From Streptomonospora nanhaiensis (GTDB lineage: Bacteria; Actinomycetota; Actinomycetes; Streptosporangiales; Streptosporangiaceae), in assembly GCF_013410565.1 (NCBI RefSeq), contig NZ_JACCFO010000001.1:5642001-5706000 (forward strand): DNA of 64,000 nucleotides, read 5' to 3'. The notes below the pieces were generated by a model. That model saw only the letters and a program-made list of their open reading frames with translations, searched no databases and had not been told where the DNA came from. Position numbers and translations under genes: made by a program. Every line of letters begins with the position of its first letter. The stretch's first letter is position 1. Shown piece after piece: positions 670 to 16,809 of this stretch.

Positions 670-2826
670 TCAGTCCGGCTCGGCGGTCGGCTCGGTGCCG
701 CCGCGGGGTAGGCGCAGGGTGAACACCGCGCCCTCGCCCGGTGCGCTGGCGACCGCCACCGTCCCCCCGTGCAGCTCCACGAGGTTGCGCACGATGGCCA
801 GCCCCAGCCCGCTGCCGCCCGTCTGGCGGCTGCGGGACTTGTCGGCGCGCCAGAACCGGTCGAACACGTTGGGCAGGTGCTCCGGGCTGATCCCGGTACC
901 GGTGTCGGCGACCTCGATGACCGCCGAGTCGTCCTCGGCCCGCGCCCGCACCGTCACCCGCCCTCCGGCCGGTGTGTGCCGCACCGCGTTGCCCAGCAGG
1001 TTGCCCAGCACCTGGAGCATGCGCACCCGGTCGGCCACCAGCACGACCTCGTCGGCCGGGGCGGCGGCGACCAGTTCCACCTCGGCCGAGGCGGCGGCCA
1101 GGCGGTGCCCGGCCACCGCCTGCTCCACCAGGTCCCGGGCGTCCAGCGGCTCGGGCACCAGCGTCAGCTTGCCCGCCTCCGCCAGCGCCAGGTCCTGCAG
1201 GTCGTCGATGATGCGCTGGAGCAGGATCGTCTGCTCCACCAGCAGCGCGGTCCGCTCCGGCTCCAGCTCCGCCACCCCGTCCTGGGCCGCCTCCAGCCAG
1301 CCGCGCAGGTTGCTCAGCGGCGTGCGCAGCTCGTGGGAGACGTCGCTGACCATGGCGCGGCGCTGGGCCTCCAGCCGCTCCAGGTGCTCCGACATCTCGT
1401 TGAACGCCTCGGCCAGCCGCCCGATCTCCCCGGAGTCGCGCACCGGCACCCGCGGCGAGCCCGCGCCGGCGCGCATGCGCCGCACCGCGTCGGTGAGGTC
1501 GCGCACCGGGCGCACCAGCCGCGCGGCCACCGCGGCGCTGACGCCCACCGTCAGCAGCAGCACCAGCAGCACCACCCCCGTCACCCGCAGGAGGCCCTCG
1601 CGCGACAGCTCCAGCCCGCCCTCGGCCCGGGGCTCGGGGTCGCCGATGAACAGCAGCGCCGCCGGAGCGGTGTAGGGGTCCAGTTGGCGGCGCCGGCCCG
1701 AGTCGAAGCAGTCGGCCGCGCGCGGGTCCAGCTCCGCCGCCGAGCCGTAGGGCTGGGCCGCCGGGTCGGCGGAGCGCTCCGGCGTCTCCTCGGGCACCGG
1801 GGTGGCGACGGGCGCCGCGCCGTCGGCCTCCGGCGGCTCGGGAGTGGCCGCGGTGTCCTCCTGCGGCGCGCCCGGGTCGCTCATCCCCGGCCAGGGGTAC
1901 TCCTCGACGGGCTCGGGGGCGGAGGAGGGGGCGCCGGGCGGGGCGGAAGGGTCGTCGCCCGGAGGCGAGTCCGCCACCTCGGGCGGCCGCGCCTCGTCGG
2001 CGGCGCCGGAGCCGACCTCCGGCGGCGCGGGCGGCTCCACCACGGCGGCGGGGGCGCCGGTGGCGGCGTCGATCCGCGCGCGCACCCGCAGCCCGTGCTC
2101 GCGGGCGCAGGGGGCGATGAGCCGGTTGAGCTCCGCCAGGGCCGCGCGCTCGGTGTCGGTGGGGTCCTCCAGCTCCGCCAGCTCGCAGGCGGCCCACTCG
2201 GGCTCGGTCACCGGGCCGTCGGGCACGGTGACGAACGGGCGCCCCGAGGGCGCCGTCTCGGTCTCGGCGGCCATGCCGAACCGCACGCCCAGGCAGTCGG
2301 CGCCGGACTCGGCGATGCGCCGCAGCCGTCCCCGCTCGTCCTCGGGCAGCGCGAACGGGCCGACCGCGCGCGGGTCGATGCGGTCGGCGTCCTCGGCGGC
2401 CAGGGTGAGGTCCACCGCCAGCGGGTCGACCACCGAGGCGGTGCGCGCGGGCAGCGGGGTGCCACCGGCCGCGGAGTCCGCGATCAGGCGCCGGTTCTCC
2501 GTCGTCAGCGCGATGCGCCGCCCGGTGTCCTCGGCCAGCTCCTCGACCACGTCGTCCACCCCGCGCCACTCGGGGTGGGTCGCGGCGTGGGCCACCAGTT
2601 CGTCGTGGATGCGGGTGTCGATGGTGAGCGTCTGGCCCTGCTCCACGCTGATCGACTCGGATGTGCCCTCCACCGCCAGCCACGCCGTCGCGGTGATGGA
2701 GCACACCGCCACCACCACCGAGGTGGTCAGCAGGCGGCCCAGCAGGCTGTGCCGCAGCGCGCCCCGCACGCGTGCGCCGCGCGGCACCGCCCCGCGGCGC
2801 CGCGCGCCCTCACGCCGGCGTCTCAC
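670..2826 (-). CDS. Membrane sensor histidine kinase with Pro-rich sensor insert
   Basis: This is a 718-residue kinase. A first membrane helix lies at about residues 29-50. The extracytoplasmic domain of roughly 370 residues includes about 100 residues rich in Pro, Glu and Ala. A second helix (VVLLVLLLTVGV) is followed by HAMP, the phosphoacceptor helix with SHELRTPLSN, and an HATPase with an N box (GNAVRHTP) and G boxes (DTGTGIS, GSGLGLAIV). It should autophosphorylate and pass phosphate to the regulator encoded just upstream, whose 3' end it overlaps by 17 nt; the chosen start is the GTG in that overlap. The HAMP/HisKA arrangement resembles BaeS/MprB kinases. The signal is unknown; the long Pro-rich insert suggests a wall-spanning sensor. 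Confidence 0.9.
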   Translation of the reverse strand: MRRRREGARRRGAVPRGARVRGALRHSLLGRLLTTSVVVAVCSITATAWLAVEGTSESISVEQGQTLTIDTRIHDELVAHAATHPEWRGVDDVVEELAEDTGRRIALTTENRRLIADSAAGGTPLPARTASVVDPLAVDLTLAAEDADRIDPRAVGPFALPEDERGRLRRIAESGADCLGVRFGMAAETETAPSGRPFVTVPDGPVTEPEWAACELAELEDPTDTERAALAELNRLIAPCAREHGLRVRARIDAATGAPAAVVEPPAPPEVGSGAADEARPPEVADSPPGDDPSAPPGAPSSAPEPVEEYPWPGMSDPGAPQEDTAATPEPPEADGAAPVATPVPEETPERSADPAAQPYGSAAELDPRAADCFDSGRRRQLDPYTAPAALLFIGDPEPRAEGGLELSREGLLRVTGVVLLVLLLTVGVSAAVAARLVRPVRDLTDAVRRMRAGAGSPRVPVRDSGEIGRLAEAFNEMSEHLERLEAQRRAMVSDVSHELRTPLSNLRGWLEAAQDGVAELEPERTALLVEQTILLQRIIDDLQDLALAEAGKLTLVPEPLDARDLVEQAVAGHRLAAASAEVELVAAAPADEVVLVADRVRMLQVLGNLLGNAVRHTPAGGRVTVRARAEDDSAVIEVADTGTGISPEHLPNVFDRFWRADKSRSRQTGGSGLGLAIVRNLVELHGGTVAVASAPGEGAVFTLRLPRGGTEPTAEPD

Positions 2827-3508
2827 CGCCGCCTCTCAGCTTGTAGCCCACCCCGTAGACGGTGACCAGCCGCCGGGGCGACCGAGGGTTGGGCTCCAGC
2901 TTCTTGCGCAGGTTCTTCACGTGCACGTCGATGGTGCGCTCGGTGAAGAACCGGTCGATGCCGTGGATGCGCTCCAGGAGCTGGGAACGGGTGAAGACCT
3001 GCTCGGGCCGGGCCGCCAGCGCCGCCAGCAGCTGGAACTCCGCCGGCGTGCACTCCACCTGCGCGCCGTCCACGTGCACCGTGTGCCGCGCGGGGTCGAC
3101 CACCACCGCCCCGGCGCGCAGCGGCCGGTCGGGGCCGCCCGGCGCGGCGGCGCGCCGCAGCAGCGTGCGGATCCGCGCCATCAACTCGCGCGGGCTGTAG
3201 GGCTTGGTCACGTAGTCGTCGGCGCCGATGTCCAGGCCGGCGAGCAGGTCGTCCTCGGTGGAGCGCGCCGTCAGCATCAGCACGGCCACGTCGGACTCCG
3301 CGCGCAGCCGCCGGCACACCTCCAGCCCGCTCATCTCGGGCAGCATCACGTCGAGCACCACCAGGTCGGGCCGGCTGCGCCGGTACTCGGCAAGGGCCGC
3401 GCCGCCGTCGTGCACGACGGCCGTGGTGTGGTCCTCGCGCTCCAGGTAGCGCCGGACCAGATCGGCCTGCTGCACGTCGTCCTCGGCGATGAGCACATGG
3501 GCGCACAC
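2810..3508 (-). CDS. OmpR-family response regulator
   Basis: This 232-residue regulator has an N-terminal receiver with the acidic pair (EDD), the phosphorylated Asp in VVLDVMLPEMSG, the Thr/Ala switch (MLTAR) and the Lys in VTKPYSPRE. A C-terminal winged helix of the Trans_reg_C type ends in VYGVGYKLRG. It is the first gene of a two-gene operon with the overlapping histidine kinase. The start used is a GTG; a second GTG five codons later would also work. It is divergent from the L,D-transpeptidase gene, separated by 237 nt, so it may control cell-wall functions there (inference). Confidence 0.92.
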   Translation of the reverse strand: MCAHVLIAEDDVQQADLVRRYLEREDHTTAVVHDGGAALAEYRRSRPDLVVLDVMLPEMSGLEVCRRLRAESDVAVLMLTARSTEDDLLAGLDIGADDYVTKPYSPRELMARIRTLLRRAAAPGGPDRPLRAGAVVVDPARHTVHVDGAQVECTPAEFQLLAALAARPEQVFTRSQLLERIHGIDRFFTERTIDVHVKNLRKKLEPNPRSPRRLVTVYGVGYKLRGGGETPA

Positions 3509-3745
3509 GACGCCGGCCCCCTTCCGCGCGATCTCCTGTCGGGTGATCGTATGCCGCCCGGCCGCGCCGGTCCGCCCCGAGGAGGCGATGCGGGCGCGGG
3601 AACACAGAATTCACACATTTCCCTCACGACCGACACACATCCGGCGGGCAGCGTGCGTTGCCGTCCCTCCCCGCACCGCCCCGGCGGGCCCGGATCGCCG
3701 ACGACCCGGCGCCCCCGGCCGCGGACCACCCGACCGGATGGAAGC

Positions 3746-4519
3746 ATGAACCCTCATCCCCTGACGCGGCGCCCCGGCGCCGCCGTGCGCGGCGCCGCGG
3801 CGCCGGCCCTGGCGGCCCTGCTGCTGGCGCTGGCCGGCTGCTCCTCGGACGGCGCCTCCGACGGCGCCGCCGAGCAGGCCGACACCGCCCCGACCTCCGA
3901 CGCGTCCGCGGGCCGGGGCCAGGAGCCCGCGCGGATCGCCACCGCCACCGGCTCGGAGATCGACGTGCACGCCGAGCCGGACGGCGCCGTGACCCAGACC
4001 CTGGCCAGCCCCAACGACTTCGGCGCCGACCGCACCTTCCTGATCGAGGACGAGCGGGGCGAGTGGCTGGAGGTGCTGCTGCCCGTCCGCCCCAACGGCA
4101 GCACCGGGTGGGTGCGCGCCTCCGACGTCTCCCTGAGCACCACCACCCTGAGCCTGCACGTGGACCTCGGCGACTTCGCGTTCCGCGTCCTCGACGGCGG
4201 TGAGGAGGTGCGCTCCGGCGACGTCGCGATCGGTACCGAGGACACCCCCACCCCGCCCGGCCGCTACTACTTCACCGAGCTGCTGCGGCCGCCCGAGCCC
4301 GACGGCGACTACGGCGCCTACGCGTTCGGCCTCAGCGGGTTCTCGCCCACCCTGGAGGAGTTCGCCGGCGGCCCCGGCCAGCTCGCGGTGCACGGCACCG
4401 ACGACGAGTCGGGGCTGGGCGGCGAGGTCAGCCACGGCTGCATCCGCGTGGCCAACGACGACATCACCTGGATGGCGGAGAACCTGCCGCTGGGCACCCC
4501 GGTCGAGGTCACCGAGTGA
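3746..4519 (+). CDS. L,D-transpeptidase lipoprotein (YkuD family)
   Basis: The 257-residue product starts with a twin-Arg-poor signal peptide ending in the lipobox LAGC, so it should be a membrane-anchored lipoprotein. An SH3-like stretch at about residues 65-130 is followed by a YkuD catalytic domain with HGTDD and the active-site SHGCIRV near the C-terminus, containing the nucleophilic Cys. Such enzymes form 3-3 cross-links in peptidoglycan or attach proteins to it. The ATG at 3746 is chosen because it directly precedes the signal peptide; the frame is open much further upstream but without protein-like sequence. It is transcribed away from the two-component system. Confidence 0.9.
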   Translation: MNPHPLTRRPGAAVRGAAAPALAALLLALAGCSSDGASDGAAEQADTAPTSDASAGRGQEPARIATATGSEIDVHAEPDGAVTQTLASPNDFGADRTFLIEDERGEWLEVLLPVRPNGSTGWVRASDVSLSTTTLSLHVDLGDFAFRVLDGGEEVRSGDVAIGTEDTPTPPGRYYFTELLRPPEPDGDYGAYAFGLSGFSPTLEEFAGGPGQLAVHGTDDESGLGGEVSHGCIRVANDDITWMAENLPLGTPVEVTE

Positions 4520-5200: not shown

Positions 5201-5884
5201 TCAGTCCGCCTCCCCGCCCTCGGACGGGGGCTCCAGCGGGTCCGCCGCCCCGCCCGCGCGCCGGCGCTCCCGCAGGTAGGTCGTGTGGTCGTCCTGCCGG
5301 CGGGCGTGGGCCTCCAGCATCCGCTCGGCCGTGCGGTCCACGTCGCGGTCCAGCAGCTCCACCTGCTCGCGCAGGTGCGCGGCCGCGCTCGTGCCGCCCC
5401 CCGCCCGCCGCGAGGCGTCGTACCACCACGGCAGGTTGAGGTAGGTCTCCAGCGCCTCGGGCAGGTCGCGGCGCACGATCCGCTCCAGCTCGTAGCCGAC
5501 CTCGGGGTCGGCCGCCACCACCTCCTCCTGGCGCAGCAGGTAGCGCAGCCTGTCCGCCATGTTCGCGAACCGCTCGGGCACCCCCTCGGGCAGCCGCGAG
5601 CGCCGCTCGCCCACGCGCGCGGCCAGCCGGTCCAGCGCGTCCAGGGTGCGCCGCAGCTCGGCCCGCGTGGACTCGGCGACCAGGTGCACCCGGGGCGGTG
5701 GCGCCGCCAGGGCGCCTGCGGCGTAGAGCGCGGCCACCGCCGGCGGCCAGAACCCGCCCAGCACCCCGGTGAACGCCAGCACCAGGCCCACGAGCCCGGC
5801 GGTCGCGCCCCACAGGTTGCGGGTGGAGCCCAGGTAGTCGACCGCGGCGCGCAGCGGGCCGCGGCGCCGGTCACTGGTAGCCAC
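5201..5884 (-). CDS. XpaC-like membrane protein of TelA operon
   Basis: This 227-residue protein has two N-terminal membrane helices (about residues 24-42 and 45-62) and then a long charged helical region. The middle segment, with helices ending in RRDLPEALETYLNLP, recalls the XpaC family (5-bromo-4-chloroindolyl phosphate hydrolysis protein), which is paired with the TelA homologue YaaN in Bacillus. The homology is judged by eye and is tentative. It is the last gene of the four-gene operon and starts 14 nt inside the preceding gene, so its translation is probably coupled. Its biochemical role is unknown. Confidence 0.7.
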   Translation of the reverse strand: MATSDRRRGPLRAAVDYLGSTRNLWGATAGLVGLVLAFTGVLGGFWPPAVAALYAAGALAAPPPRVHLVAESTRAELRRTLDALDRLAARVGERRSRLPEGVPERFANMADRLRYLLRQEEVVAADPEVGYELERIVRRDLPEALETYLNLPWWYDASRRAGGGTSAAAHLREQVELLDRDVDRTAERMLEAHARRQDDHTTYLRERRRAGGAADPLEPPSEGGEAD

Positions 5885-7493
5885 GGATCTCCCGGAACGC
5901 CTGGTCGAGGGAGTCCTCGCGGGCGTCGAAGGCGCGCCCGCCGGTCAGCTCCGCCAGCTCCTCCAGCTCGGCGGGGTCGGACTCCCCGAAGACCACCGGG
6001 AACACCGGCACCTCCCGCAGCTCCGCCGGCAGGCCGGCGTGCTCGGCGCGGAACTCCTCCAGGGTGAGCCCGGCGTTGACCTCGCCGTCGGTCATCAGCA
6101 CCACCGAGGTGAAGCGGTCGGCCACGTCGTCCTCGCCGCGCAGCCGTTCGAACGCCTCGTCCAGCGCGGAGTAGGCGGCGGTGTCGCCGGCCGGCTCCAT
6201 CGCCTCCACGGCGGCCTGGATGTCGTCCAGCACCGGCCCGGGGTCCTCCTCGGGCACCTCGAAGGTCTCGGCGGGCCGCACGGTGCCGTCGAAAGGCAGC
6301 AGGGTCACCCGCTCGCGGCCGTAGAAGCGCTGGAACCGGCCGCTGACCGAGCTGGTGTCGCCGCCGGTCAGGGTGCCCATGGCGGTGCGCATGCCGGCGA
6401 TGCGGTCCCCGGCCATCGACCCCGACAGGTCAAGGACGTAGACGGTGCGGGCGGGCCGGCGCAGCTCGTCGAAGTAGCTGCGGACCAGACCGGTGGCGAC
6501 CTCCTCCCGGGCGGGGAACGGCAGCTCGGCCACCTGCGGGAACTCCACCTCGGCGCTGACCTCCGCCGACAGCGGGCGGCGGTGCGTGGTGTCGGTGATC
6601 TCCCGCTGCACCTCGGCCGACAGCAGGTGGTCCACCAGCCGGCCGTAGCCCTCGGCGACCCCCTCGTCGGCGCCGGCCAGCAGCGAGAGCGGGTAGTCGG
6701 CGGTGACCGCGCCGTCGGCCGGGTGTATCAGGGTCAGCGGCTCGGGCAGGTCCCCGGACTCGTTGAGCGACAGCAGCACCGACTCGTAGTTGATGAGGGC
6801 GTCCACGCGGGCTCCGGAGCCCTCCGCGCCGGCGCGGCGGATGTAGGCGTCGGCCAGCCACCCCGAGGACCCCGCGGTCAGCTCCTGGCCGGAGAAGAAC
6901 GCCCGCAGCTGGGGCGCCACGGCCTCCACGTCCTCCTGGCGCAGCGCCGACCCGGTGTCGGCCAGCGCCGAGGCGACGCCCACCAGCGCGCTGAAGCCGG
7001 AGTTGGAGGCGGCCGGGTTGGTCATGCCGAAGGCGAGGTCGCCGCTGGACGCGGCCTCGGCGATGTCGCCCCAGGTGACCTCGGCGCCGCCGGCCCACCC
7101 CAGGTCGGCCGCCGCCGACTCGGTGACTCCCAGCACCACCGGCGAGGCCATCACCGGGGTCTCCTCGGCCACCGCCTCGGCGCCGCCCGGCTGGAGGTTG
7201 AGGTAGCGGTTGGAGGAGAACCACACCGCGTCGTAGCGGTCGTCGGTGCGCCCGGACACCACCTCCTCGACGCCCTCCAGGGTGCCGGTGTAGTCCAGGT
7301 GGACGGTCACGCCCACCTCGTCGGCGGCGCGCTCCAGGATCGGCTCCAGGTCGCGGATCTCGCTGCCGGCCAGCACCCGCAGCTCGCCGGCCACGCCCGG
7401 TCCGGCCGAGGGGCCCTCGGCGCCGGGCGTGCAGCCCGACAGGGCGACCACCGCCGCGGCGGCGGCCGCCGCCCACGCCCGCACCCGGCTCAC
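5871..7493 (-). CDS. Lipoprotein with binding-protein domain and vWA domain
   Basis: This 540-residue product begins with a signal peptide and lipobox (VVALSGC). Residues of about 40-330 resemble a periplasmic substrate-binding domain (LRVLAGSEIRDLEPILERAA, with a later ASNSGFSALVG stretch). Residues of about 350-520 form a von Willebrand A domain with an intact MIDAS motif, DLSGS, and a second metal-ligand region (LMTDGEVNAG). The GTG start overlaps the telA stop codon by 4 nt. It is the third gene of the TelA operon. A lipid-anchored receptor that joins ligand capture to metal-dependent protein contact is a reasonable inference, but no ligand is known. Confidence 0.85.
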   Translation of the reverse strand: MSRVRAWAAAAAAAVVALSGCTPGAEGPSAGPGVAGELRVLAGSEIRDLEPILERAADEVGVTVHLDYTGTLEGVEEVVSGRTDDRYDAVWFSSNRYLNLQPGGAEAVAEETPVMASPVVLGVTESAAADLGWAGGAEVTWGDIAEAASSGDLAFGMTNPAASNSGFSALVGVASALADTGSALRQEDVEAVAPQLRAFFSGQELTAGSSGWLADAYIRRAGAEGSGARVDALINYESVLLSLNESGDLPEPLTLIHPADGAVTADYPLSLLAGADEGVAEGYGRLVDHLLSAEVQREITDTTHRRPLSAEVSAEVEFPQVAELPFPAREEVATGLVRSYFDELRRPARTVYVLDLSGSMAGDRIAGMRTAMGTLTGGDTSSVSGRFQRFYGRERVTLLPFDGTVRPAETFEVPEEDPGPVLDDIQAAVEAMEPAGDTAAYSALDEAFERLRGEDDVADRFTSVVLMTDGEVNAGLTLEEFRAEHAGLPAELREVPVFPVVFGESDPAELEELAELTGGRAFDAREDSLDQAFREIRGYQ

Positions 7494-8572
7494 CGGTCCG
7501 GCTCTCCGGGCCGGCGCGAACGGGCCAGGTGCTCGCCGGCGGCCTCCAGTTCGCCGCGCAGGGCCTCGGTCGTGGCGGCCATGTTCTCCACCGCCTGCTC
7601 CTTGAAGTGGTCGATCTTGTCGATGGTGGCGTAGATGCGGCGGAAGGCGTCGCGCAGCGTCTCCACGCCCACCGCCGGGTCGGCGGCGATGCGCTGGACG
7701 TCCTCGCTCTGGGTGGCCAGCATCTCGGCGTTGGCCGCGATGATGTCCTCGGTGGTGCCGCGCAGCGCGTCGACCTGCTCCACCACCCGCTTCTGGTTGG
7801 CCAGCGCCTGGGCCACGGTGACCGCCACCCGCAGCGCCGAGACCGTGGTGGTGGCGGCGCGGTCCACGCCCTTGATCAGCTCCTCGTTGCCGCGCCGCAG
7901 CGTGTCCAGCGCCAGGTAGCCCTGCACGCACACGGCGAGCTGGGTGAGCAGGTCCTGGTGGCGCCGGCGCACCGGGAACAGCACGTCGGCGCGCAGCCGG
8001 GAGGCGGTGTCGGGGTCGGCGGCGTCGACCCGGCGCTGCACGGCCGCGTCCAGCGCCTCGGCCAGCACCGCGTACTCCTGCAGCCGGCCCATGGTCTCCC
8101 ACAGCCGGGCCCGCTCGTTCTGCAGCGCGGCGTTGCCGAACGGCAGGAAGCCCAGCAGCCGCCGCCCGGTCAGGCGGCCGGCGTCCTTGGGGTCGAGGTC
8201 CTCGACCGTGCGGCGCAGCTCCAGCAGCCCCTCGCCCACCCGCCGCTGGGCGTCGGCGCCCTCGCCCCGGGCGCCGCTCATGCCCGACACCGAGCGGCGC
8301 AGCAGCCGGTTGGTGGACTCCGCCGAGGCGCGCATCTCGCTGTCGCCCAGCGCCGTGATGTCGCCGACGCGGGTGAGGAACTCGGGCGAGCGGGGGTCCA
8401 GGCCGGCCAGCGCGGCGGCGTAGCCGTCGGCGCGCCGGCGCAGCTCCGCGCGCTTGGCCTCCTCGATGGGGACGAGGTCGCGGGCGCGCTCGGGCCGGAC
8501 CGGGCGCACCGGTTCGGGCGGGGTCAGGACGAGGTCGTCCTCGGGGGGCGAGAGCGGGGTGTCGGCGCTCAC
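7490..8572 (-). CDS. telA: Toxic anion resistance protein, TelA/YaaN family
   Basis: This 360-residue cytoplasmic, largely helical protein matches the TelA family: a charged N-terminus, a long helix with ITALGDSEMRASAESTNRLL, and a core with LRADVLFPVRRRHQDLL, QALANQKRVVEQVDAL and IDKIDHFKEQAVENM. TelA proteins are linked to tellurite and other stresses, but their biochemistry is unresolved. The start is a GTG overlapping the upstream stop by 4 nt (GTGA), and its own stop overlaps the next GTG in the same way, so the operon is translationally coupled. The open frame extends upstream, but only as a shadow of the neighbouring gene. Confidence 0.9.
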   Translation of the reverse strand: MSADTPLSPPEDDLVLTPPEPVRPVRPERARDLVPIEEAKRAELRRRADGYAAALAGLDPRSPEFLTRVGDITALGDSEMRASAESTNRLLRRSVSGMSGARGEGADAQRRVGEGLLELRRTVEDLDPKDAGRLTGRRLLGFLPFGNAALQNERARLWETMGRLQEYAVLAEALDAAVQRRVDAADPDTASRLRADVLFPVRRRHQDLLTQLAVCVQGYLALDTLRRGNEELIKGVDRAATTTVSALRVAVTVAQALANQKRVVEQVDALRGTTEDIIAANAEMLATQSEDVQRIAADPAVGVETLRDAFRRIYATIDKIDHFKEQAVENMAATTEALRGELEAAGEHLARSRRPGEPDR

Positions 8573-9732
8573 GTGCGCACCACTTCCTCCGGTACGGGTG
8601 TTGTCACTGCCGCGGTGCCGCCGGCGGCGCCGTCGTCCCCGGCGGGCGCGGGCCTCCCGTCGGCGGTGTAGCGCTCCTCGATGCGGCCGATCAGGTCCTC
8701 GACCACCTCGTAGGAGGGGGCGGGCACGACGTCGGCGACCTGGTCGCGCACGGGCAGCTCCCGCTCGCGCGCGAGGTCGGCGAAGCGCCGGGCGTCGGTG
8801 GTACGGAACCCGTGCTCGGCCGCCAGGCGCTGCAGCTCGGGGTCCTCGGTCAGCAGCCCGCCGAACGCGTCGCCCTCCTCGGTGAGCGGGAGCAGGGTGT
8901 GGGTGGCCACGGTGGTGGGGCCGGGGTAGAGCAGCACGACGTCCTCGGGCAGGCCGCCGGGGCCGGTGCGGGCGGTGATGTACTGCTGCTCGTAGGCCCA
9001 CAGCAGCGGCGTGTGGCCGGCGCCCAGCGCCACGAACTGGTCGAAGGGCTGCTGGGAGCTGGCGGGCGGGCTGCCCTGGGCGAGGAACAGCCGGGCGGCC
9101 TCCTCCACCAGGCCGGGCTCGGCGGCGGCGTCGGTGACCACCTCCTCGCCGTTGAGCAGGTAGCTGACGACCACCAGGTACATCGCGGCGGAGTTGGAGG
9201 TGCGCGGGTCGGTGGTGCGTATCAGCACCTCGCCGCGCCCGGCGCCGCCGAGCGCGTCGCCGGGCAGGTCGCGCCAGCGGGTGCGCTCCTCGGTGAGGTC
9301 GAGGTAGGCGGCCATGTCCAGGTCCCAGGCGCCGTCCTGGGCGCGCCGGGCGACCCCGGCGCGCGCCAGCGCCTCGGCGACGGGCCGGTAGCTGAGCACC
9401 ACCATCGGCGAGTAGAACGGCCGGTACACCCGCTCCACGGCGTTGTTGCGGCGCAGGACCTCGGCGGAGGGGTCGCTGCTGGGGAAGGCGAAGTCCACCC
9501 CGTCCAGGTCGGTGGTGGCGATCTCGCGGGAGCCGCCGGTGCGGATGTCGGCCTCGTAGCCGAGTTCGGCCAGGCGCTCGACCACCTGGGGATCGGCGAA
9601 GAACGTGGCCTTCTCCGAGCCGATCACGCCGCTGACCACCGTGGGGGAGGAGCCCCACAGGTTCCACACGGCGGCGACCGCCACGCCCGCCACCAGGAGA
9701 GCCGATACCACCAGCGCACCGACGCGTCTCAC
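8569..9732 (-). CDS. Membrane-anchored substrate-binding-like protein
   Basis: This is a 387-residue protein with one N-terminal membrane helix (residues 4-25, no lipobox Cys) and an extracytoplasmic domain resembling bacterial solute-binding proteins: VVSGVIGSEKATFFADPQVVERL, then repeated alpha/beta segments and TSNSAAMYLVVVSYLL. The TSNS/Ala signature recurs in the vWA partner encoded two genes later (ASNSGF), which suggests two related binding domains. The start is the GTG at 9732, preceded by a strong GGGGAG ribosome site. It is the first gene of the TelA operon. No transporter gene is present, so a sensing or scaffold role is more likely than import (inference). Confidence 0.8.
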   Translation of the reverse strand: MRRVGALVVSALLVAGVAVAAVWNLWGSSPTVVSGVIGSEKATFFADPQVVERLAELGYEADIRTGGSREIATTDLDGVDFAFPSSDPSAEVLRRNNAVERVYRPFYSPMVVLSYRPVAEALARAGVARRAQDGAWDLDMAAYLDLTEERTRWRDLPGDALGGAGRGEVLIRTTDPRTSNSAAMYLVVVSYLLNGEEVVTDAAAEPGLVEEAARLFLAQGSPPASSQQPFDQFVALGAGHTPLLWAYEQQYITARTGPGGLPEDVVLLYPGPTTVATHTLLPLTEEGDAFGGLLTEDPELQRLAAEHGFRTTDARRFADLARERELPVRDQVADVVPAPSYEVVEDLIGRIEERYTADGRPAPAGDDGAAGGTAAVTTPVPEEVVRT

Positions 9733-9946: not shown

Positions 9947-11119
9947 CTACCGGCCGCCGGCGGTGTCGGCGGTGTCGGCGGTGCCGGAGTCCGGCTCGGC
10001 CAGCATGCGCCCCACCCAGGCGTGGAAGGCGCCGATGTGGTGCTCCACCGGCACCAGCACCCCGCCGTCGCGGTAGGCCCGGGATTCCATGGCCGGCTGG
10101 CAGCGCTCGCAGGCGTCGAAGTCCTGCCGGTTGACCCGGTCGAACAGCTCCACCGAGCGCGACAGGTCGGCACCGGAGGCCACCACCTCCGGGCTGTAGA
10201 GCCAGTCGCACTCCACGCGGGTGCGGTCGGGCGCCAGCGGGAACATGCGGTGCACGATGACGTGGTCGGGCACCAGGTTGACGAACACCTGCGGCGGGAC
10301 GGTGATGGCGTAGTAGCGGCGGTCCTGGTGGTCGCCGATGCCGTCCAGGCGGCCGAACCCGGCGCCGCCGTCCACGGTGAACCCGTCGATCCCCTCGCCG
10401 AACTGCGCGCCGTGGCCCACGTAGTACTGGGCGGCGTAGCCCTCGGCGAACTCCGGCAGCACCTCGGTCAGCTCCGGGTGGATGGTGCCGCAGTGGTAGC
10501 ACTCCATGAAGTTCTCGACGATCAGCTTCCAGTTGGCCGCCACGTCGTAGCCGATGCGCCGGCCCAGCGCGAGGTCCGCCACCCCGTAGCGGTCGATGGC
10601 GGCGGGGTCGCCCAGCCGCTCGGCCACGGCCGCCTGCACGGTATCGGCGAAGGACGGCGGCTCGTCGGCCAGGCACACCCATACGTAGCCCAGCCACTCG
10701 CGCACGTGCACCCCGATCAGGCCCCGGTCCTCGCGGCGGACGCCGGCCATGTCGGCGAGGTTGGGCGCGGCCACCAGGCGGCCGTCCAGGTCGTAGGTCC
10801 AGGCGTGGTAGGGGCAGCGCAGCGACCGCTTGACGCTGCCGGCCTCCTCGGTGCACAGCCGCGCGCCCCGGTGGCGGCACACGTTGAGGAAGGCGCGGAC
10901 GGCGCCGGAGCGGTTGCGGGTGAGCAGCACGCTCTCGCGGCCCACCCGCACGGTGCGGAAGTCACCGGGTGCGGCCAGGTCGGCGCCGCGCACCGCGCAG
11001 AACCAGGTGCGTTCGAAGATCAGCCGCTGCTCGCGGGCGAAGACGCCGGGGTCGGTGTAGTCGCGGCCGGGCGGGGTCGGGATCAGGCTGGGCGTGGCGG
11101 GCAGGTCCGTCGCGGTCAC
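9947..11119 (-). CDS. Rieske oxygenase alpha subunit, GbcA-like
   Basis: This 390-residue enzyme carries a Rieske [2Fe-2S] domain (CRHRGARLC and CPYHAW at about residues 80-105) and a mononuclear-iron domain with [19 protein letters not shown], where the two His bind iron. The sequence class is that of glycine betaine or choline monooxygenases, which demethylate the substrate and release formaldehyde. Its operon neighbours, a sarcosine-oxidase-like flavoenzyme and a dimethylglycine-oxidase-like enzyme, support glycine betaine as substrate; stachydrine or carnitine remain possible. The GTG start overlaps the upstream stop by 4 nt. The C-terminus carries a short Ala-Asp-Thr repeat. Electrons should come from the divergent ferredoxin and reductase. 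Confidence 0.85.
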
Positions 11120-12378
11120 GTGGTCACCTCGTGCTGGGTCTGCCGGACGCGGCGCGGCCGGGGGTCGAACAGGCCGATGGGGTGCGCGGTGGTGCCGGTG
11201 GTGGCCAGGTCGGCCAGGATCTCGCCGACCACCGGCGTGAACTTGAACCCGTGCCCGGAGAACCCGCAGGCCACCGTGACCTGCGGGTGGTCGGGGTGGG
11301 CGGCGATCACGAAGTGCTCGTCGGGCGTGGTGGTGTACATGCAGGTGGCGGCGCGCAGGAACCGGCCGGGCAGGTCGGGCAGCCGGTCGCGCAGGTGCGC
11401 GGCCATCGCCTCGACCTCCTCGGGCGCCACGCTCCGCTCGACGGTGTCGGGGGTGCAGGGGGCGCCCTTGCGGAAGAACGCCGCCTTGACCCCGTCCTGT
11501 GGCCCCTCGTAGGCGGGGAACCCGTAGATCTGCACGCCCCGGGCGTCCTCCCACACATAGACCGGGTGGCGGTCGGCGGCGAAGGGCGCGGTGCCCCCGC
11601 GCGGGTGGAACCAGTACTGCACCTGGCGCTCCACGGTGAGGGGGACGCCCAGGCCGGCCAGCACCTCCGGTGCCCAAGCCCCGGGGCAGACGACCAGGTG
11701 GTCGGCGGTGTAGGCGCCCGCGTCGGTGGTGACGCGCACGCCGCCGCCCGGCAGCGCAGTCCAGGTGCGGGCGGGCTCGCCGAAGCGCAGGTCGGCGCCG
11801 TCGCGCGCGGCGAGGTCCAGGTGGGCGGCCACGGCCGCCTCGGGCCGCACGAACCCGCCGCGCGCCTCGTACAGCGCGACCTCGTCGGGGCGCGGCGCGA
11901 AGGTGGGGAAGCGGCGGCGGATGTCGGCGGGCTCCAGGATCTCGTGCGGCAGCCCCCAGCGCCGCGCCGACTCCCGGCTGCCGGCCACCGTGCGGCTGTC
12001 GGGGCGGCCCAGCATCAGGGCGCCGGTCAGCGTCATCAGGTCGGCGCCGGAGTCGCGCTCCAGCGCCTCCCACAGCTCATAGGAGCGCAGCAGCAGCGGC
12101 ACGTAGTCGGGGTGCTCGAAGTAGGCCTGGCGGATGATGCGGGAGCCGCCGTGGCTGGACCCTTGGTCGTGCGCGGGGCCGAAGCGCTCCAGGCCCAGGA
12201 CGCGCCGGCCGCGCGCGGCCAGGTGGCGGGCGGCGGCGCCGCCCATCGCGCCCAGGCCCAGGACGGCGACGTCGTAGGAGCGCCCGGCGCCTCCGGTGAC
12301 CGCCGTGCTGACCGCCCTTTTCGTGCCGCCTGCGCTGTCTGTGCTGCCAGTGCTGCCTGTGCTGCCGGTGTTCTGCAT
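11116..12378 (-). CDS. Monomeric sarcosine oxidase / N-methyl amino acid oxidase
   Basis: This is a 420-residue FAD enzyme. The dinucleotide-binding motif [14 protein letters not shown] follows an unusual N-terminal extension of about 35 residues with Gly-Ser-Thr repeats. [13 protein letters not shown] is typical of the MSOX/MTOX family, and the Cys of [12 protein letters not shown] matches the residue that covalently holds FAD. It oxidatively demethylates sarcosine to glycine, giving formaldehyde and hydrogen peroxide. The start at 12378 is supported by GGAGG nine bases upstream, so the low-complexity extension seems to be translated. It lies between the dimethylglycine-oxidase-like and Rieske genes as the last step of the pathway. 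Confidence 0.88.
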
Positions 12379-12417
12379 GGACGCGTACCTCCGTGCGGGT
12401 CGGTTCGGCGATCGGCC

Positions 12418-14895
12418 TCAGCGGCGGATGCGGGCCATGTCGGGGTCGACCAGGGGCTCGGCCGCCACGGTGGCCGCCAGCGCCTCGCCGAAGTACTCCA
12501 CGTGCACCCCGGTGCCGGGCTCGGCGGCCTCGGCGGGCAGCCAGGCGTAGGCGATCGTGCGGCCCAGCGTGGTGCTGCGGGCGGCGCTGGTGACGTATCC
12601 GGCGGGGGCGCCGCCGACGAGCACCGGTTCGCGGCCCATGACCACCCGGTGCGGGTCGTCCAGGGTGAGGCAGGCCAGGCGGCGCCGCGGCGGGCGCTCG
12701 GCCGCCGCCGCGGCGGCGGCGCGGCCGACGAAGTCGCCCTTGCCCAGGCGCACGGCGAACCCCAGGCCCGCCTCGTAGGGGTCGTGCTCGGTGGTCATGT
12801 CGGTCCCGGCCAGCCGGTAGCCCTTCTCCAGCCGCAGGCTGGTGAAGGCGCCGCGCCCGGCGGCGACCGCGCCCAGGGGCCGGCCCGCCGCCCACAGGGT
12901 GTCCCACAGCAGCAGGGCGGTGTCGGCGCCGGTGTAGACCTCCCAGCCCAGTTCGCCGACGTAGGAGACCCGCAGCGCCAGCACCGGCACATGGCCGATG
13001 TGGGCGCGCCGCGCCTTGAAGTAGCCGAACCCGGCGTGGGAGAAGTCGTCGTCGGTGAGCGGCTGCACCAGGTCGCGCGCCAGCGGCCCCCACACGCCCA
13101 CGCACGCGGTGCCGCCGGTGATGTCGCGCAGCACCACCGAGCCGTCGGCGGGCAGGTGGCGGGTGAGCCAGTCGGTGTCGAGCCGGCCGCTAACCCCCAC
13201 CTGGAAGGCGTCCTCGGCCAGGCGGGTGACGGTGATGTCGGAGCGCACCCCGCCGGCGTGGTCGAGCAGCAGCGTGTAGGTGACCGTGCCGGGGGCCCGG
13301 TCGAGCTGGTTGGTGCACATGCGCTGGAGGAACGCCAGGGCGCCGGGGCCGCTGACCTCCAGCCGGGTCAGCGGTGTCATGTCGTAGAGCGCGACGCGCT
13401 CGCGGGTGGCGCGGGCCTCGGCGTCCACGACGGGCGACCAGTGGCGGGCCGACCAGGGGTCGCGTTCGGGGGTGTCCGGATCGGCCAGGCCGGCGTTGGC
13501 CGTGAACCACAGCGGGCGCTCCCAGCCGCCCGCCTCGCCGAAGACGGCGCCCAACTCCCGGTGGCGGAGGTAGAACGGGCTCGTGCGCAGCGGCCGGGGC
13601 CGCTCGATCGGCTGGAGCGGGTGCACCACGTCGTAGACCTCGACGAAGCTCTGCTCGCCCCGGTCGGCGATGTAGGCGGGGGACAGCTGCGCCTCCTCGA
13701 AGCGGTGGACGTCGCACTCGTGCACGTCCACCCGGGGCCGGCCCTCGACCATCCACTCGGCCACCGCCCTGGCGGCGCCCGCCGAGTGGGTCACCCACAC
13801 CGCCTCGGCCAGCCAGAACCCGGGCAGTTCGCGCGCCTCGCCCAGCAGCGGCATGCCGTCGGGCGTGAAGGAGAACACGCCGTTGAAGCCCTCGTCCACC
13901 TTGGAGTCGGCCAGGGCCGGCAGCAGCGCGCAGGCGTCGCGCCAGCTCGGCTCGAAGTCCTCGGCGGTGAACGGCAGCATCGAGGGCATCTCGGCCGCCT
14001 GCCCCGGCGCGGCCACGGCCGCCAGGTCCACCGGCAGCGGACGGTGGGCGTAGGAGCCGATCCCGATGCGGTCGCCGTGCTCGCGGAAGTAGAGGTCGCG
14101 GTCCTGGTGGCGCAGCAGCGGCAGCGCGGCCTCCAGGTCGGGCGGGTTGGCGGTGCCGGGCAGGGGCGCGGTGTAGGCGTACTGGTGGGCCAGCGGCAGC
14201 AGCGGCACGGTGACGCCCGCCATCCGCCCGATCGCCGGACCCCAGAATCCGGCGGCCGAGACGGCGATGTCGGCGGGGAAGGTCCCCCGGTCGGTCACCA
14301 CCGCGCTGACCCGGCCGCCGGAGCGCTCGACCCCCACCACCGTGTGGTGGCCCAGGAACCGCGCGCCGCGCGCCATGGCGGCGCGGGCCTGGGCCTCGCC
14401 CGCGCGCACCGCCTTGGCCAGGCCGTCGTCGGGGGTGTGCAGGCCGCCCAGCACCGCGCCGGGGGCCAGGCCCGGCCACAGCCGGGCGCACTCGGCGGGG
14501 TCCAGCAGCGCCGCGCGCACGCCCCACGCGCGCGCCCAGCCGTACTTGCGCTTCAGGTCGGCCAGGCGCTCGGGCGTGGTGGCGACCTCCAGTCCGCCCA
14601 CCGCCCGGAAGCACCAGCGGCCGTCCAGGCTCAGTCCGGAGTACTTGCGCACGGTGTAGGCGGCGAAGGCGGTCATGGTCTTGGAGGCGTTGGTCTGGAA
14701 CACCAGGCCCGGCGCGTGGGAGCTGGAGCCGCCCGTCGCGAAGAGGGGGCCCTGGTCGAGCACGGTGACGTCGGTCCACCCCCGTGCGGTCAGCTCGTCG
14801 GCCAGCGCGCAGCCGACGATTCCGGCGCCGATGACCACGACGCGGGGGCGGGAGGTGGGGCGGGCGGGGTGCGGCAGGTCGGAGGCGGTACTCAT
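12418..14895 (-). CDS. Dimethylglycine oxidase/dehydrogenase (FAD plus GcvT)
   Basis: This 825-residue two-domain enzyme has an N-terminal FAD domain (VVVIGAGIVGCALADEL) with the motif FATGGSSSHAPG; its His is at the position used for covalent FAD in dimethylglycine dehydrogenases. From about residue 445 onward the protein is GcvT-like (aminomethyltransferase, tetrahydrofolate-binding), with LTRLEVSGPGALAFLQ and ELGWEVYTG. Size and order match Arthrobacter dimethylglycine oxidase, which turns dimethylglycine into sarcosine and passes the methyl carbon to folate. The ATG at 14895 is preferred over an upstream in-frame ATG because an AAAGGGA site precedes it. It is the first gene of the minus-strand betaine operon. 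Confidence 0.88.
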   Translation of the reverse strand: MSTASDLPHPARPTSRPRVVVIGAGIVGCALADELTARGWTDVTVLDQGPLFATGGSSSHAPGLVFQTNASKTMTAFAAYTVRKYSGLSLDGRWCFRAVGGLEVATTPERLADLKRKYGWARAWGVRAALLDPAECARLWPGLAPGAVLGGLHTPDDGLAKAVRAGEAQARAAMARGARFLGHHTVVGVERSGGRVSAVVTDRGTFPADIAVSAAGFWGPAIGRMAGVTVPLLPLAHQYAYTAPLPGTANPPDLEAALPLLRHQDRDLYFREHGDRIGIGSYAHRPLPVDLAAVAAPGQAAEMPSMLPFTAEDFEPSWRDACALLPALADSKVDEGFNGVFSFTPDGMPLLGEARELPGFWLAEAVWVTHSAGAARAVAEWMVEGRPRVDVHECDVHRFEEAQLSPAYIADRGEQSFVEVYDVVHPLQPIERPRPLRTSPFYLRHRELGAVFGEAGGWERPLWFTANAGLADPDTPERDPWSARHWSPVVDAEARATRERVALYDMTPLTRLEVSGPGALAFLQRMCTNQLDRAPGTVTYTLLLDHAGGVRSDITVTRLAEDAFQVGVSGRLDTDWLTRHLPADGSVVLRDITGGTACVGVWGPLARDLVQPLTDDDFSHAGFGYFKARRAHIGHVPVLALRVSYVGELGWEVYTGADTALLLWDTLWAAGRPLGAVAAGRGAFTSLRLEKGYRLAGTDMTTEHDPYEAGLGFAVRLGKGDFVGRAAAAAAAERPPRRRLACLTLDDPHRVVMGREPVLVGGAPAGYVTSAARSTTLGRTIAYAWLPAEAAEPGTGVHVEYFGEALAATVAAEPLVDPDMARIRR

Positions 14896-15322
14896 CGGCG
14901 GCGTCCCTTTCGCGCATGGGCGACCGAACTCAAGTTGCGTATCATGCACCGCTCTGCACGATCATCAACAGGCTGAAGTCCAGCCCGGCCCGCCGTCAAC
15001 CCCCGGACTGTTAATCAATATTTCGCGGAAGTTGCTGACTGGTAGGCGATTCGGAGGGCTTGACGCGGGTAGGAGGGCGAGCCGACACTGTTGCGTGTTC
15101 GGCGCGCTGTTGCGCATCGGGCGACTTCGGCCCGTGGTCGTGGAAGCCCTGCGCACTCCGCCGTGTGCTCTGTGGCGTATTCCGCCGAGGCCGCCGCCTC
15201 CCGACACCACTGGTCCCCGCGCCCGGTCCCGGGCGCCCGGCTCCCGCCCGCCCCGGCACCCGCCGGGGACGACAAGCGGAACCTTCGGCGCACGACAGCT
15301 CCGCCGCCAGATGGGAGATGCC
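14896..15322. promoter_or_regulatory. Divergent promoter region of betaine cluster
   Basis: This 427-nt region between divergent operons contains an AT-richer core (14930-15035) where promoters for both directions probably lie. No regulator gene is adjacent. An imperfect inverted repeat at 14940-14963 is listed separately. TGTTGCG occurs twice (around 15089 and 15110), which could be half-sites. Confidence 0.5.
14940..14963. promoter_or_regulatory. Imperfect inverted repeat, possible operator
   Basis: TATCATGCA, six bases, then TGCACGATC match as an inverted repeat in 7 of 9 positions. It sits 45 nt upstream of the dimethylglycine-oxidase start, where a repressor or activator could act. No binding protein is identified. 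Confidence 0.35.
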
Positions 15323-15655
15323 ATGATCTACGCCTGCCACCTCGATGACCTGCCCAAGGGCGAGTCCGTCCGGGTGATGGCCGACGTGCCGATCGCCGTG
15401 TTCAACGTCGACGGCCGCCTGTACGCGGTCGACGACACCTGCACCCACCAGAACGCGTCGCTCTCCGACGGCTGGCTGGAGGGCTGCTTCATCGAGTGCC
15501 CGCTGCACGAGGCGTCCTTCGACCTGCGCACGGGCGCCCCGACCTGCCTGCCGGCCAAGCGCCCGGTGCGCACCCACGCCGTCACCGTCGCCGAGGACGG
15601 CGCCGTCTACGTGCACGCCTCCGTGCCCCAGGCCGTCGCCGAAGGCGCCGCGTGA
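15323..15655 (+). CDS. Rieske-type [2Fe-2S] ferredoxin
   Basis: This 110-residue protein carries the Rieske ligands CTH and CPLHEASFD (about residues 42-65). It is the single-domain electron carrier type used by bacterial ring-hydroxylating and demethylating oxygenases, such as the BphA3 class. The ATG at 15323 has GGGAG five bases upstream. Its stop overlaps the GTG of the ferredoxin reductase by 4 nt. Being divergent from the Rieske oxygenase operon, it probably supplies electrons to that enzyme. Classical GbcB is instead a reductase with an in-built ferredoxin, so this cluster uses a three-component layout. Confidence 0.88.
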   Translation: MIYACHLDDLPKGESVRVMADVPIAVFNVDGRLYAVDDTCTHQNASLSDGWLEGCFIECPLHEASFDLRTGAPTCLPAKRPVRTHAVTVAEDGAVYVHASVPQAVAEGAA

Positions 15656-16809
15656 AGGCCGTCACCGTGGTCGGCGCGTCCCTCGCCGGCCTGGCCGCCG
15701 CCCGCGCGCTGCGCGAGCAGGGGTACACGGGCGCGCTGACCGTGGTGGGCGCCGAGCGCCACGCGCCCTACGACCGCCCGCCGCTGTCCAAGGACTTCCT
15801 CCTGGGCAAGGCCGAGGCCGCCGACCTCGCCCTGACCGCCGAGGACGACTCCGACCTGGACGTGCGCTGGCGGCTGGGAGCGCGGGCGGTGGCGCTGGAG
15901 CCGCGCCGCCGGGCCGTGGTGCTGGCCGACGGCACCGAGGTCGCCTCCGACGCCGTGGTGGTGGCCACCGGCGCCGCCGCGCTCCCGCTGCCGGGGGCGC
16001 CCCGGCTCGCCGGCGTGCACACCCTGCGCACCCTCGACGACGCCGAGGCCCTGCGCGCGGAGCTGGCGTCCGGGTCGCCGCGCGTGGCCGTGGTCGGCGG
16101 CTCCTTCATCGGCGCCGAGATCGCCTCGGCCTGCGCCGCGCTGGGGCTGGAGACGACCGTGGTCGAGGCCGCCGCCGCGCCGCTGGAGCACGTGCTGGGC
16201 CCCGAGGTCGCCGCCGCCGTGGCCGGGCTGCACGCCGCCAACGGGGTGCGGCTGCTGTGCGGCACGCCGGTGGCCGCCCTCGCCGGCGCCGACCGGGTCA
16301 CCGGGCTGGTGCTGGCCGACGGCCGCACGGTGCTCGCCGACGTGGTCGTGGTGGGGATCGGCGCCCGGCCGGCCACCGACTGGCTCACCGGGTCGGGACT
16401 GGAGCTGGACCGCGGCGTGGTGTGCGACCCCGGGCTGCGCACCGCCCTGCCCGGGGTGGTGGCGGTGGGCGACGCCGCGCGGGTGCGCCGCGCCGACGGC
16501 ACCACCACGCGCGCCGAGCACTGGAGCGCCGCCAACGACCAGCCGCCGGTGGCCGTGCGCAACCTGCTCGCCGGCCGGACCGTGGCCGCCTACGCCCGCG
16601 TCCCCTACTTCTGGTCCGACCAGTACGGCCGGCGCCTCCAGTTCGCCGGCGAGACCCGGCCCGGCGACACCCTGCGGGTGGTCGACGGCGCGCTCGCCGA
16701 AAGCGCCTTCGCCGCCGTCTACGAGCGCGGCGGCCGGGCGGTGGCGGCCGTCGCCCTGGACCGCCCGCGCGCCTTCACCCGGCTGCGCAAGGGCCTGGCC
16801 GCGGCCTGA
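15652..16809 (+). CDS. FAD-dependent ferredoxin reductase
   Basis: This 385-residue flavoprotein has two dinucleotide-binding folds: VVGASLAGLAAARALRE at the N-terminus for FAD and VVGGSFIGAEIASACAALG near residue 145 for NAD(P)H. It also has the PYDRPPLSK motif and a GDAARV segment, typical of the BphA4/rubredoxin-reductase family. A C-terminal dimerisation-type domain is present. It should pass electrons from NAD(P)H to the ferredoxin encoded by the overlapping upstream gene, and from there to the Rieske oxygenase. The GTG start overlaps the ferredoxin stop (GTGA). Confidence 0.9.
   Translation: MKAVTVVGASLAGLAAARALREQGYTGALTVVGAERHAPYDRPPLSKDFLLGKAEAADLALTAEDDSDLDVRWRLGARAVALEPRRRAVVLADGTEVASDAVVVATGAAALPLPGAPRLAGVHTLRTLDDAEALRAELASGSPRVAVVGGSFIGAEIASACAALGLETTVVEAAAAPLEHVLGPEVAAAVAGLHAANGVRLLCGTPVAALAGADRVTGLVLADGRTVLADVVVVGIGARPATDWLTGSGLELDRGVVCDPGLRTALPGVVAVGDAARVRRADGTTTRAEHWSAANDQPPVAVRNLLAGRTVAAYARVPYFWSDQYGRRLQFAGETRPGDTLRVVDGALAESAFAAVYERGGRAVAAVALDRPRAFTRLRKGLAAA

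Follow-up and report, generated by a model that had tools for sequence, protein, structure and literature searches.

Four consecutive genes on the minus strand of a 64,000-nucleotide stretch of the Streptomonospora nanhaiensis genome (contig NZ_JACCFO010000001.1, positions 5,642,001 to 5,706,000; this whole stretch is called the window below) form an operon, in which gene A encodes a membrane-anchored binding-protein-like subunit, gene B the TelA protein, gene C a predicted lipoprotein combining a binding-protein domain with a von Willebrand factor type A (vWA) domain, and gene D an XpaC-like membrane protein whose helical domain is predicted to be cytoplasmic (Table 1). The genes overlap by 4 nt (A/B), 4 nt (B/C) and 14 nt (C/D), and the genes, their places and the overlaps were all confirmed as an initial annotation of the locus had given them. 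Compared with the nearest relative, Streptomonospora mangrovi (L024), the products are 92.8% (A), 87.0% (B), 92.7% (C) and 83.6% (D) identical.

Table 1 Features of the four-gene operon, with positions counted in the window
Feature	Position	Strand	Basis
Gene A, membrane-anchored binding-protein-like subunit, 387 aa	8569..9732	-	Open reading frame (ORF)
A: sulfate-binding-protein-like domain, about residues 28-361	8650..9651	-	Structure matches spanning 28-361; hhalign
A: S179-N180-S181, predicted ligand loop	9190..9198	-	Invariant in 21/21
Gene B, TelA, 360 aa	7490..8572	-	PF05816, E 2.4e-64
Site in B where the window copy lacks 102 bp (34 in-frame codons) relative to the S. mangrovi gene	8135..8136	-	Comparison with the nearest relative
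Gene C, predicted lipoprotein, binding-protein domain plus vWA, 540 aa	5871..7493	-	ORF; Pfam; predicted model, mean local confidence score (pLDDT) 87
C: binding-protein domain, about residues 34-347	6453..7394	-	
C: S163-N164-S165 segment	6999..7007	-	S163 and S165 invariant; N164 at least 90%
C: vWA domain, about residues 348-540	5874..6452	-	
C: DxSxS motif of the metal ion-dependent adhesion site (MIDAS), residues 355-359	6417..6431	-	Invariant in 21/21, with T438 and D469
C/D overlap, 14 nt	5871..5884	-	D start codon inside the codons for the terminal R-G-Y-Q of C
Gene D, XpaC-like membrane protein, predicted cytoplasmic helical domain, 227 aa	5201..5884	-	ORF; hydrophobic stretch; weak XpaC similarity
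D: membrane stretch, about residues 23-60	5705..5818	-	Hydropathy and alignment

The product of gene A carries a single N-terminal hydrophobic stretch. Its binding domain is homologous to that of C, and in predicted models both have the receptor fold of ATP-binding cassette (ABC) importers, with sulfate-binding proteins among the closest folds. Profile comparison aligned A with seven TIGR00971 proteins over 143 columns (hhalign, p 5.7e-5) and C with sulfate-binding proteins (p 4.7e-4). ModA was considered as the nearest relative and rejected, with A giving no signal against it (p 0.29) and C reaching p 2.3e-4. Pfam searches of C placed VWA and VWA_3 over the cut-off and SBP_bac_8 under it. The SNS-type segment that the initial annotation had reported for both binding-type proteins is indeed common to them, and in A it aligned with the TSGGAR loop of sulfate-binding proteins. 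Likewise, C joins a binding domain to a vWA domain whose MIDAS, judged by its invariant residues, is intact, in agreement with the earlier description. Owing to the SNS loop and the fold, an oxyanion or a phosphate or sulfate (phospho/sulfo) group is favoured, with low confidence, as the first ligand class for A and C. Sequence searches turned up no relative of solved structure for A or for TelA, and for D none that was credible. Two A homologues with an extra N-terminal part (L072, 9525-11006; L073, 9081-10535) had no C, TelA or D called beside them, and the neighbour of each reads from its sequence as oxidoreductase-like.

The product of gene B scored 217.9 bits on the TelA family PF05816 (curated cut-off 30), exceeding the cut-off even with 34 residues missing, and it is the sole TelA found in its 6.28 Mb genome. 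In S. mangrovi, near-identical short direct repeats flank the site of the missing 102 bp, and the shortening of the window copy may be a real deletion or an assembly collapse. TelA was present in both bacterial and archaeal control genomes. Among 396 genomes of the phylum, A was found in 11 and TelA over the cut-off in 17, and the two occurred together in nine (p 2e-12, a value that ignores phylogeny).

The product of gene D has a hydrophobic region near its N-terminus, where hydropathy covers about residues 23-53, and the membrane stretch is read as a two-helix hairpin, the putative second helix coming from the alignment rather than from program prediction. D belongs to no Pfam family, none of 20 D members matched PF10112 (XpaC / Halogen_Hydrol) at E 0.1, and no PF10112 protein was found in the window's own genome. 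When a D profile was compared with six XpaC-type proteins, the score was 31.3 over 156 columns, with the best of 100 column shuffles reaching 17.2 and the reversed profile 18.6; the corresponding probability was 18-24%, a smaller alignment gave an hhalign probability of 10% over 44 columns, and the window D alone reached E 1.1 against our XpaC profile. D as plain XpaC was rejected on its failure in Pfam, the weak profile similarity being kept as a lead, and the protein may at most be called XpaC-like, not XpaC. In three loci of another class of the phylum, the gene in the slot of D is XpaC by Pfam in L075 (PF10112, E 1.2e-9), falls below the cut-off in L076 and was placed by alignment alone in L074; our D profile matched none of the three. 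The XpaC-like partner proposed in the initial annotation is thus supported by slot position and by weak profile similarity, but not by family membership of D itself. D also follows TelA in locus L131 (6.7e-31), where A and C are missing, and in L132 a short D-like protein (9e-5) lies beside TelA. The latter locus presumably also holds TerD- and TerC/DUF475-like genes, so named from sequence.

The order A-B-C-D, on one strand, was found in 20/20 loci of Streptomonospora, Nocardiopsis, Actinoallomurus and Streptomyces, with D of L025 cut by the contig end (gene calls in the fetched loci were made with our own script). It recurs on a plasmid of Sphaerotilus sulfidivorans, where B/C overlap by 4 nt and C/D by 14 nt, but A and TelA are separated by a 43-nt gap. 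On a Variovorax plasmid, one of three Variovorax records, a small ORF lies between TelA and C in an otherwise identical order, and a Deinococcus plasmid carries A-C-D; TelA was not found on that plasmid (its chromosome was not searched). Profile searches confirmed the gene identities in the plasmid loci of all three genera. In the three loci of another class the order is shuffled, being A-C-D-B in L074 and C-D-A-B in L075 and L076, with D assigned by slot. The system is therefore seen in three phyla, in the third with no TelA on the plasmid examined, and the gene order, which the initial annotation had staked its reading on, is kept far beyond close relatives. On the Variovorax SRS16 plasmid (L081), an ASCH-domain gene comes after the operon, Wadjet-type genes (JetA and partners) begin about 2.4 kb further along, and a flotillin-domain gene lies upstream.

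A census of C in 297 genomes of one order gave a match at 1e-20 in 127 genomes and at 3e-169 or better in 109. The surroundings were read in 108 of these 109 (in G006 the contig ends within the operon), which together with two weaker paralogous loci made 110 loci. Their gene orders were ABCD (68), ABCDA (1), BCD (4, in which the place of A falls outside the fetched flank or past the contig end), ACD (1), AC (31) and C alone (5), the last also being the state of L063. B and D were both present in 73 loci and both absent in 36, D occurred once without B, and B never occurred without D (the D slot of L220, lying beyond the contig end, was counted as absent). The two genes agree in 109 of the 110 loci, a joint occurrence of TelA and D like that of the XpaC-TelA pair. 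Since B and D are not adjacent in the standard order, a single deletion would not remove both. A tree of 141 C proteins requires at least 11 changes of B and 10 of D, and among seven supported independent pairs D moved with B in 5.8 on average and never in the opposite direction (median p 0.031, range to 0.0625); for this tree, the presence of TelA in L188, where a contig end cuts it, and of B and D in L074-L076 was set by hand, and at least one genome was entered twice.

A start codon 14 nt ahead of the end of C was found in 96/100 loci with B versus 5/41 without it. The C terminus EIRGYQ is kept in 30/39 loci without B and D and in 92/100 loci with B, indicating that the tail of C is retained for its own sake. 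All seven ABCD genomes chosen for inspection held exactly one TelA, at the operon, and no TelA was found anywhere in the 35 genomes whose locus is without B. Because B and D are gained and lost jointly and A-C occurs without them, these data support a core of A and C, with B-D as a working pair and A-C as a self-sufficient one. The single TelA-centred complex that had been envisaged at first was not borne out: one obligate TelA complex was rejected, given that in 36/110 loci A-C or C stands with neither B nor D, and that the 35 genomes whose locus has no B hold no TelA. In 29 clustered loci out of these 36, no recurrent same-strand replacement for B-D was found, except upstream genes common to three C-alone loci.

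In addition, flanking genes were compared across 32 sources. Most of the 14 largest flank families are confined to Streptomyces or Nocardiopsis, and the only ones among them that recur across genera encode a generic ABC ATPase (5 loci) and a histidine kinase (3 loci). No cognate permease was found in the operon, and none is common across genera among the 14 families. ABC transporters with their own binding proteins do lie just upstream on the same strand in L074 (10909-13584, thiamine-type as read) and L075 (12911-17823, branched-chain amino-acid type as read), L076 having no such transporter; and of 29 A-C or C loci, 11 have an ABC transporter of sugar type downstream, on the opposite strand, with its own binding proteins in 9 of the 11 (kinds read from sequence). 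The initial annotation had argued from the missing permease for ligand sensing over transport. Its view that no permease is at hand needs qualifying in view of these neighbouring transporters, but because the operon itself encodes no permease, ligand sensing without transport is still the role that fits best.

Taken together, we tentatively favour, with somewhat less than even confidence, a permease-free extracytoplasmic ligand sensor made of A and C that works with the TelA/XpaC-like pair B-D, which would protect the membrane. The sensor would stand outside the membrane, with A held by one N-terminal helix and C by lipid, and upon ligand binding the metal-holding MIDAS of the vWA domain would dock a partner. 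As the effector, D would sit in the membrane by its hairpin and place its helical domain next to TelA on the cytoplasmic side, and TelA would assemble beneath the membrane and protect it during envelope stress, as proposed for XpaC-TelA of Bacillota. Ligand binding by A and C would be relayed to D or to the membrane itself and so set TelA assembly. This coupling of A-C to B-D is the least certain step of the model.

Several observations weigh against this reading. A and C have no long cytoplasmic part to carry a signal, and A-C persists without TelA in the loci counted above, which means that it must also act alone or via another partner. Both sensor genes are patchily distributed: A is as rare in the phylum as stated above, and C was found in 14/60 relatives and, of the five other genomes of the window's genus, only in G003. 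The stretch of 34 residues missing from the window TelA is kept in 20/20 other alignment rows, the failure of D in Pfam and its low profile probabilities leave its kinship to XpaC weak, and the same-strand transporters of L074 and L075 also count against the model. Moreover, in a bacteriocin-resistant mutant of L. lactis an XpaC-like gene is truncated among other mutations, with the authors, in the relevant passage, unsure of its role (PMC7864038).

The independence of A-C suggests another explanation, in which two functions share one operon: A-C would act at the surface as a self-sufficient pair, perhaps a ligand scavenger or a cell-wall or adhesion protein using its MIDAS, and B-D would be an independent pair protecting the membrane, no more than co-transcribed with it under the same stress. 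We consider this unlikely, though by no means far-fetched. The 31 loci with A-C and the five with C alone, the lack of TelA in 35 genomes without B at the locus and the occurrence of B-D without A-C in L131 are what it would predict; it fits less well with the standard order, which interleaves the two modules by placing B between A and C and D after C, and with the finding that the parts remain together where the order is shuffled (D being assigned by slot) and also on plasmids from another phylum. That A and C are instead ordinary ABC importer receptors for sulfate, molybdate or another oxyanion, with a permease elsewhere and TelA relieving the toxicity of a mis-imported anion, seems improbable to us. 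Sulfate-binding proteins are among their closest folds, transporters do lie near the operon in L074, L075 and the 11 loci with a sugar-type system, and a Vibrio TelA operon includes an ABC permease, an ATPase and other binding proteins. However, ordinary importer receptors were rejected as the main explanation for want of a permease in the operon or in common across genera among the 14 flank families, and the nearby transporters differ in kind and bring their own binding proteins, including 9 of the 11 sugar-type cases. The vWA fusion and the fixed pairing with a second receptor are, to our knowledge, not importer features.

A Ter-type chemical or phage defence, in which TelA and the vWA protein would form a sub-membrane barrier, is more doubtful still. 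It is suggested by a published proposal that TelA and the TerF vWA protein form sub-membrane structures keeping out phage or xenobiotics (PMC7824862), and by the carriage of the operon on plasmids and its position about 2.4 kb from Wadjet-type genes in Variovorax. On the other hand, no TerD, TerC or TerB gene was found among eight neighbours (Pfam) or the recurrent flank families (the rest of the genome was not scanned), and the vWA domain is here predicted to be extracytoplasmic. PADLOC models gave no match for A, B and C and only weak ones for D (best DrmD, E 0.0092), a search of 50,697 phage records gave no hit for C, and none in viral contigs could be confirmed; phage cargo was accordingly rejected as an origin. 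PspA, too, was missing from the eight neighbours (Pfam) and the recurrent flank families.

The four-gene unit probably forms a cell-envelope stress sensor and shield, and the operon is apparently a fresh, conserved and not previously described variation on the known TelA-XpaC envelope theme. No description of A/C combined with TelA and D was found in the literature, a mention in the 2012 Ter-system and 2010 Listeria TelA papers not being excluded. TelA was named for tellurite and is tied to nisin tolerance, and its mechanism is described as unknown (PMC12791056). To this question the operon adds a part outside the cytoplasm that would bind ligand in a predicted pocket, and a natural control is provided by related genomes that have the sensor pair and no TelA; as a result, what a TelA system senses becomes directly testable. 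Binding proteins are known to serve in sensing, for example with sensor kinases (PMC11113362), and the present system, if true, would extend that use. A bolder proposal, which we regard as doubtful, is a novel sensor-effector class, in which two binding proteins of transporter type, now detached from any transporter and one of them carrying a fused MIDAS vWA domain, would directly gate a sub-membrane TelA scaffold via an XpaC-like hairpin without kinase, transcription factor or permease, lineages would retain the sensor pair and switch TelA and D on or off, and PspA may take the place of TelA in a distant branch.

Such distant relatives were met among weaker C homologues (C2), which are homologous to C at a probability of 100. 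In L079, L088, L090, L136 and L137, the gene after C2 encodes a protein that has a hydrophobic stretch at its N-terminus (D2), and no such gene was called after C2 of L078, L138, L139 and L140. D2 was rejected as a D homologue, the similarity not being significant (p 0.014). In L079 (1707-5224), a solute-binding protein-vWA protein and a membrane protein are followed by PspA (PF04012, E 1.2e-29), where TelA might be expected.

Downstream of the operon in the window (673-4516), Pfam identified a histidine kinase, a response regulator and, on the plus strand, an L,D-transpeptidase (YkuD), which is an envelope context; a kinase related to this histidine kinase is also near the operon in S. mangrovi and in L061. 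Upstream (9950-16806) lie genes for a Rieske oxygenase, two flavin adenine dinucleotide (FAD) oxidoreductases, one with GCV_T domains, a Rieske ferredoxin and a ferredoxin reductase (Pfam), a cluster that we take to resemble the glycine-betaine demethylation pathway.

The operon shares features with several known systems. With the sulfate/thiosulfate-binding proteins Sbp and SubI, A and C have the fold in common, and TDPxTSNS and YE of A align with their NPxTSGG and YE; in contrast, the loop letters of A and C are SNS, the operon has no importer, and a membrane anchor or a vWA fusion has been added. Ter systems (TerB/C/D, TelA, TerF/TerY vWA) also combine TelA and a vWA protein in one operon, whereas here the vWA domain is part of a predicted extracytoplasmic lipoprotein, fused to a binding domain, and no Ter partner is among the neighbours checked. 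The TelA operon of Vibrio alfacsensis pSEA2 (L085) is similar in encoding TelA (B profile, 7e-56) with a vWA protein, binding proteins and a membrane or coiled-coil-like protein, but it has an ABC permease and an ATPase, its binding proteins are linked to OmpA-like domains, and it gave no match to A or D and, for C, only a weak one in the vWA domain. Operons in which PspA is encoded with ABC genes and a PBPB-OmpA protein (PMC11237479) likewise link a membrane-associated protein to a binding-domain protein, with PspA instead of TelA and with a transporter present.

A further parallel is the XpaC-TelA pair of Bacillota (xpaC-yaaN; lmo1966-lmo1967; llmg_1115-1116), in which TelA is encoded with a membrane protein having a helical C-terminal domain. 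According to passages of the respective papers, xpaC-yaaN are core sigma-W regulon genes of B. subtilis (PMC3498285), a paper on the envelope-stress couple CesSR has the XpaC-like llmg_1115 and telA1 among the raised genes of a transcriptome table (PMC3139573), and Listeria lmo1966-1967 are modestly raised by bacteriocin, a mutant of lmo1967 (TelA) being cited as more sensitive to nisin and tellurite (PMC12791056). Here, too, B and D act as a pair that is gained or lost together. D fails PF10112, however, and the pair is joined to two extracytoplasmic binding-domain proteins, one of them with a vWA domain.

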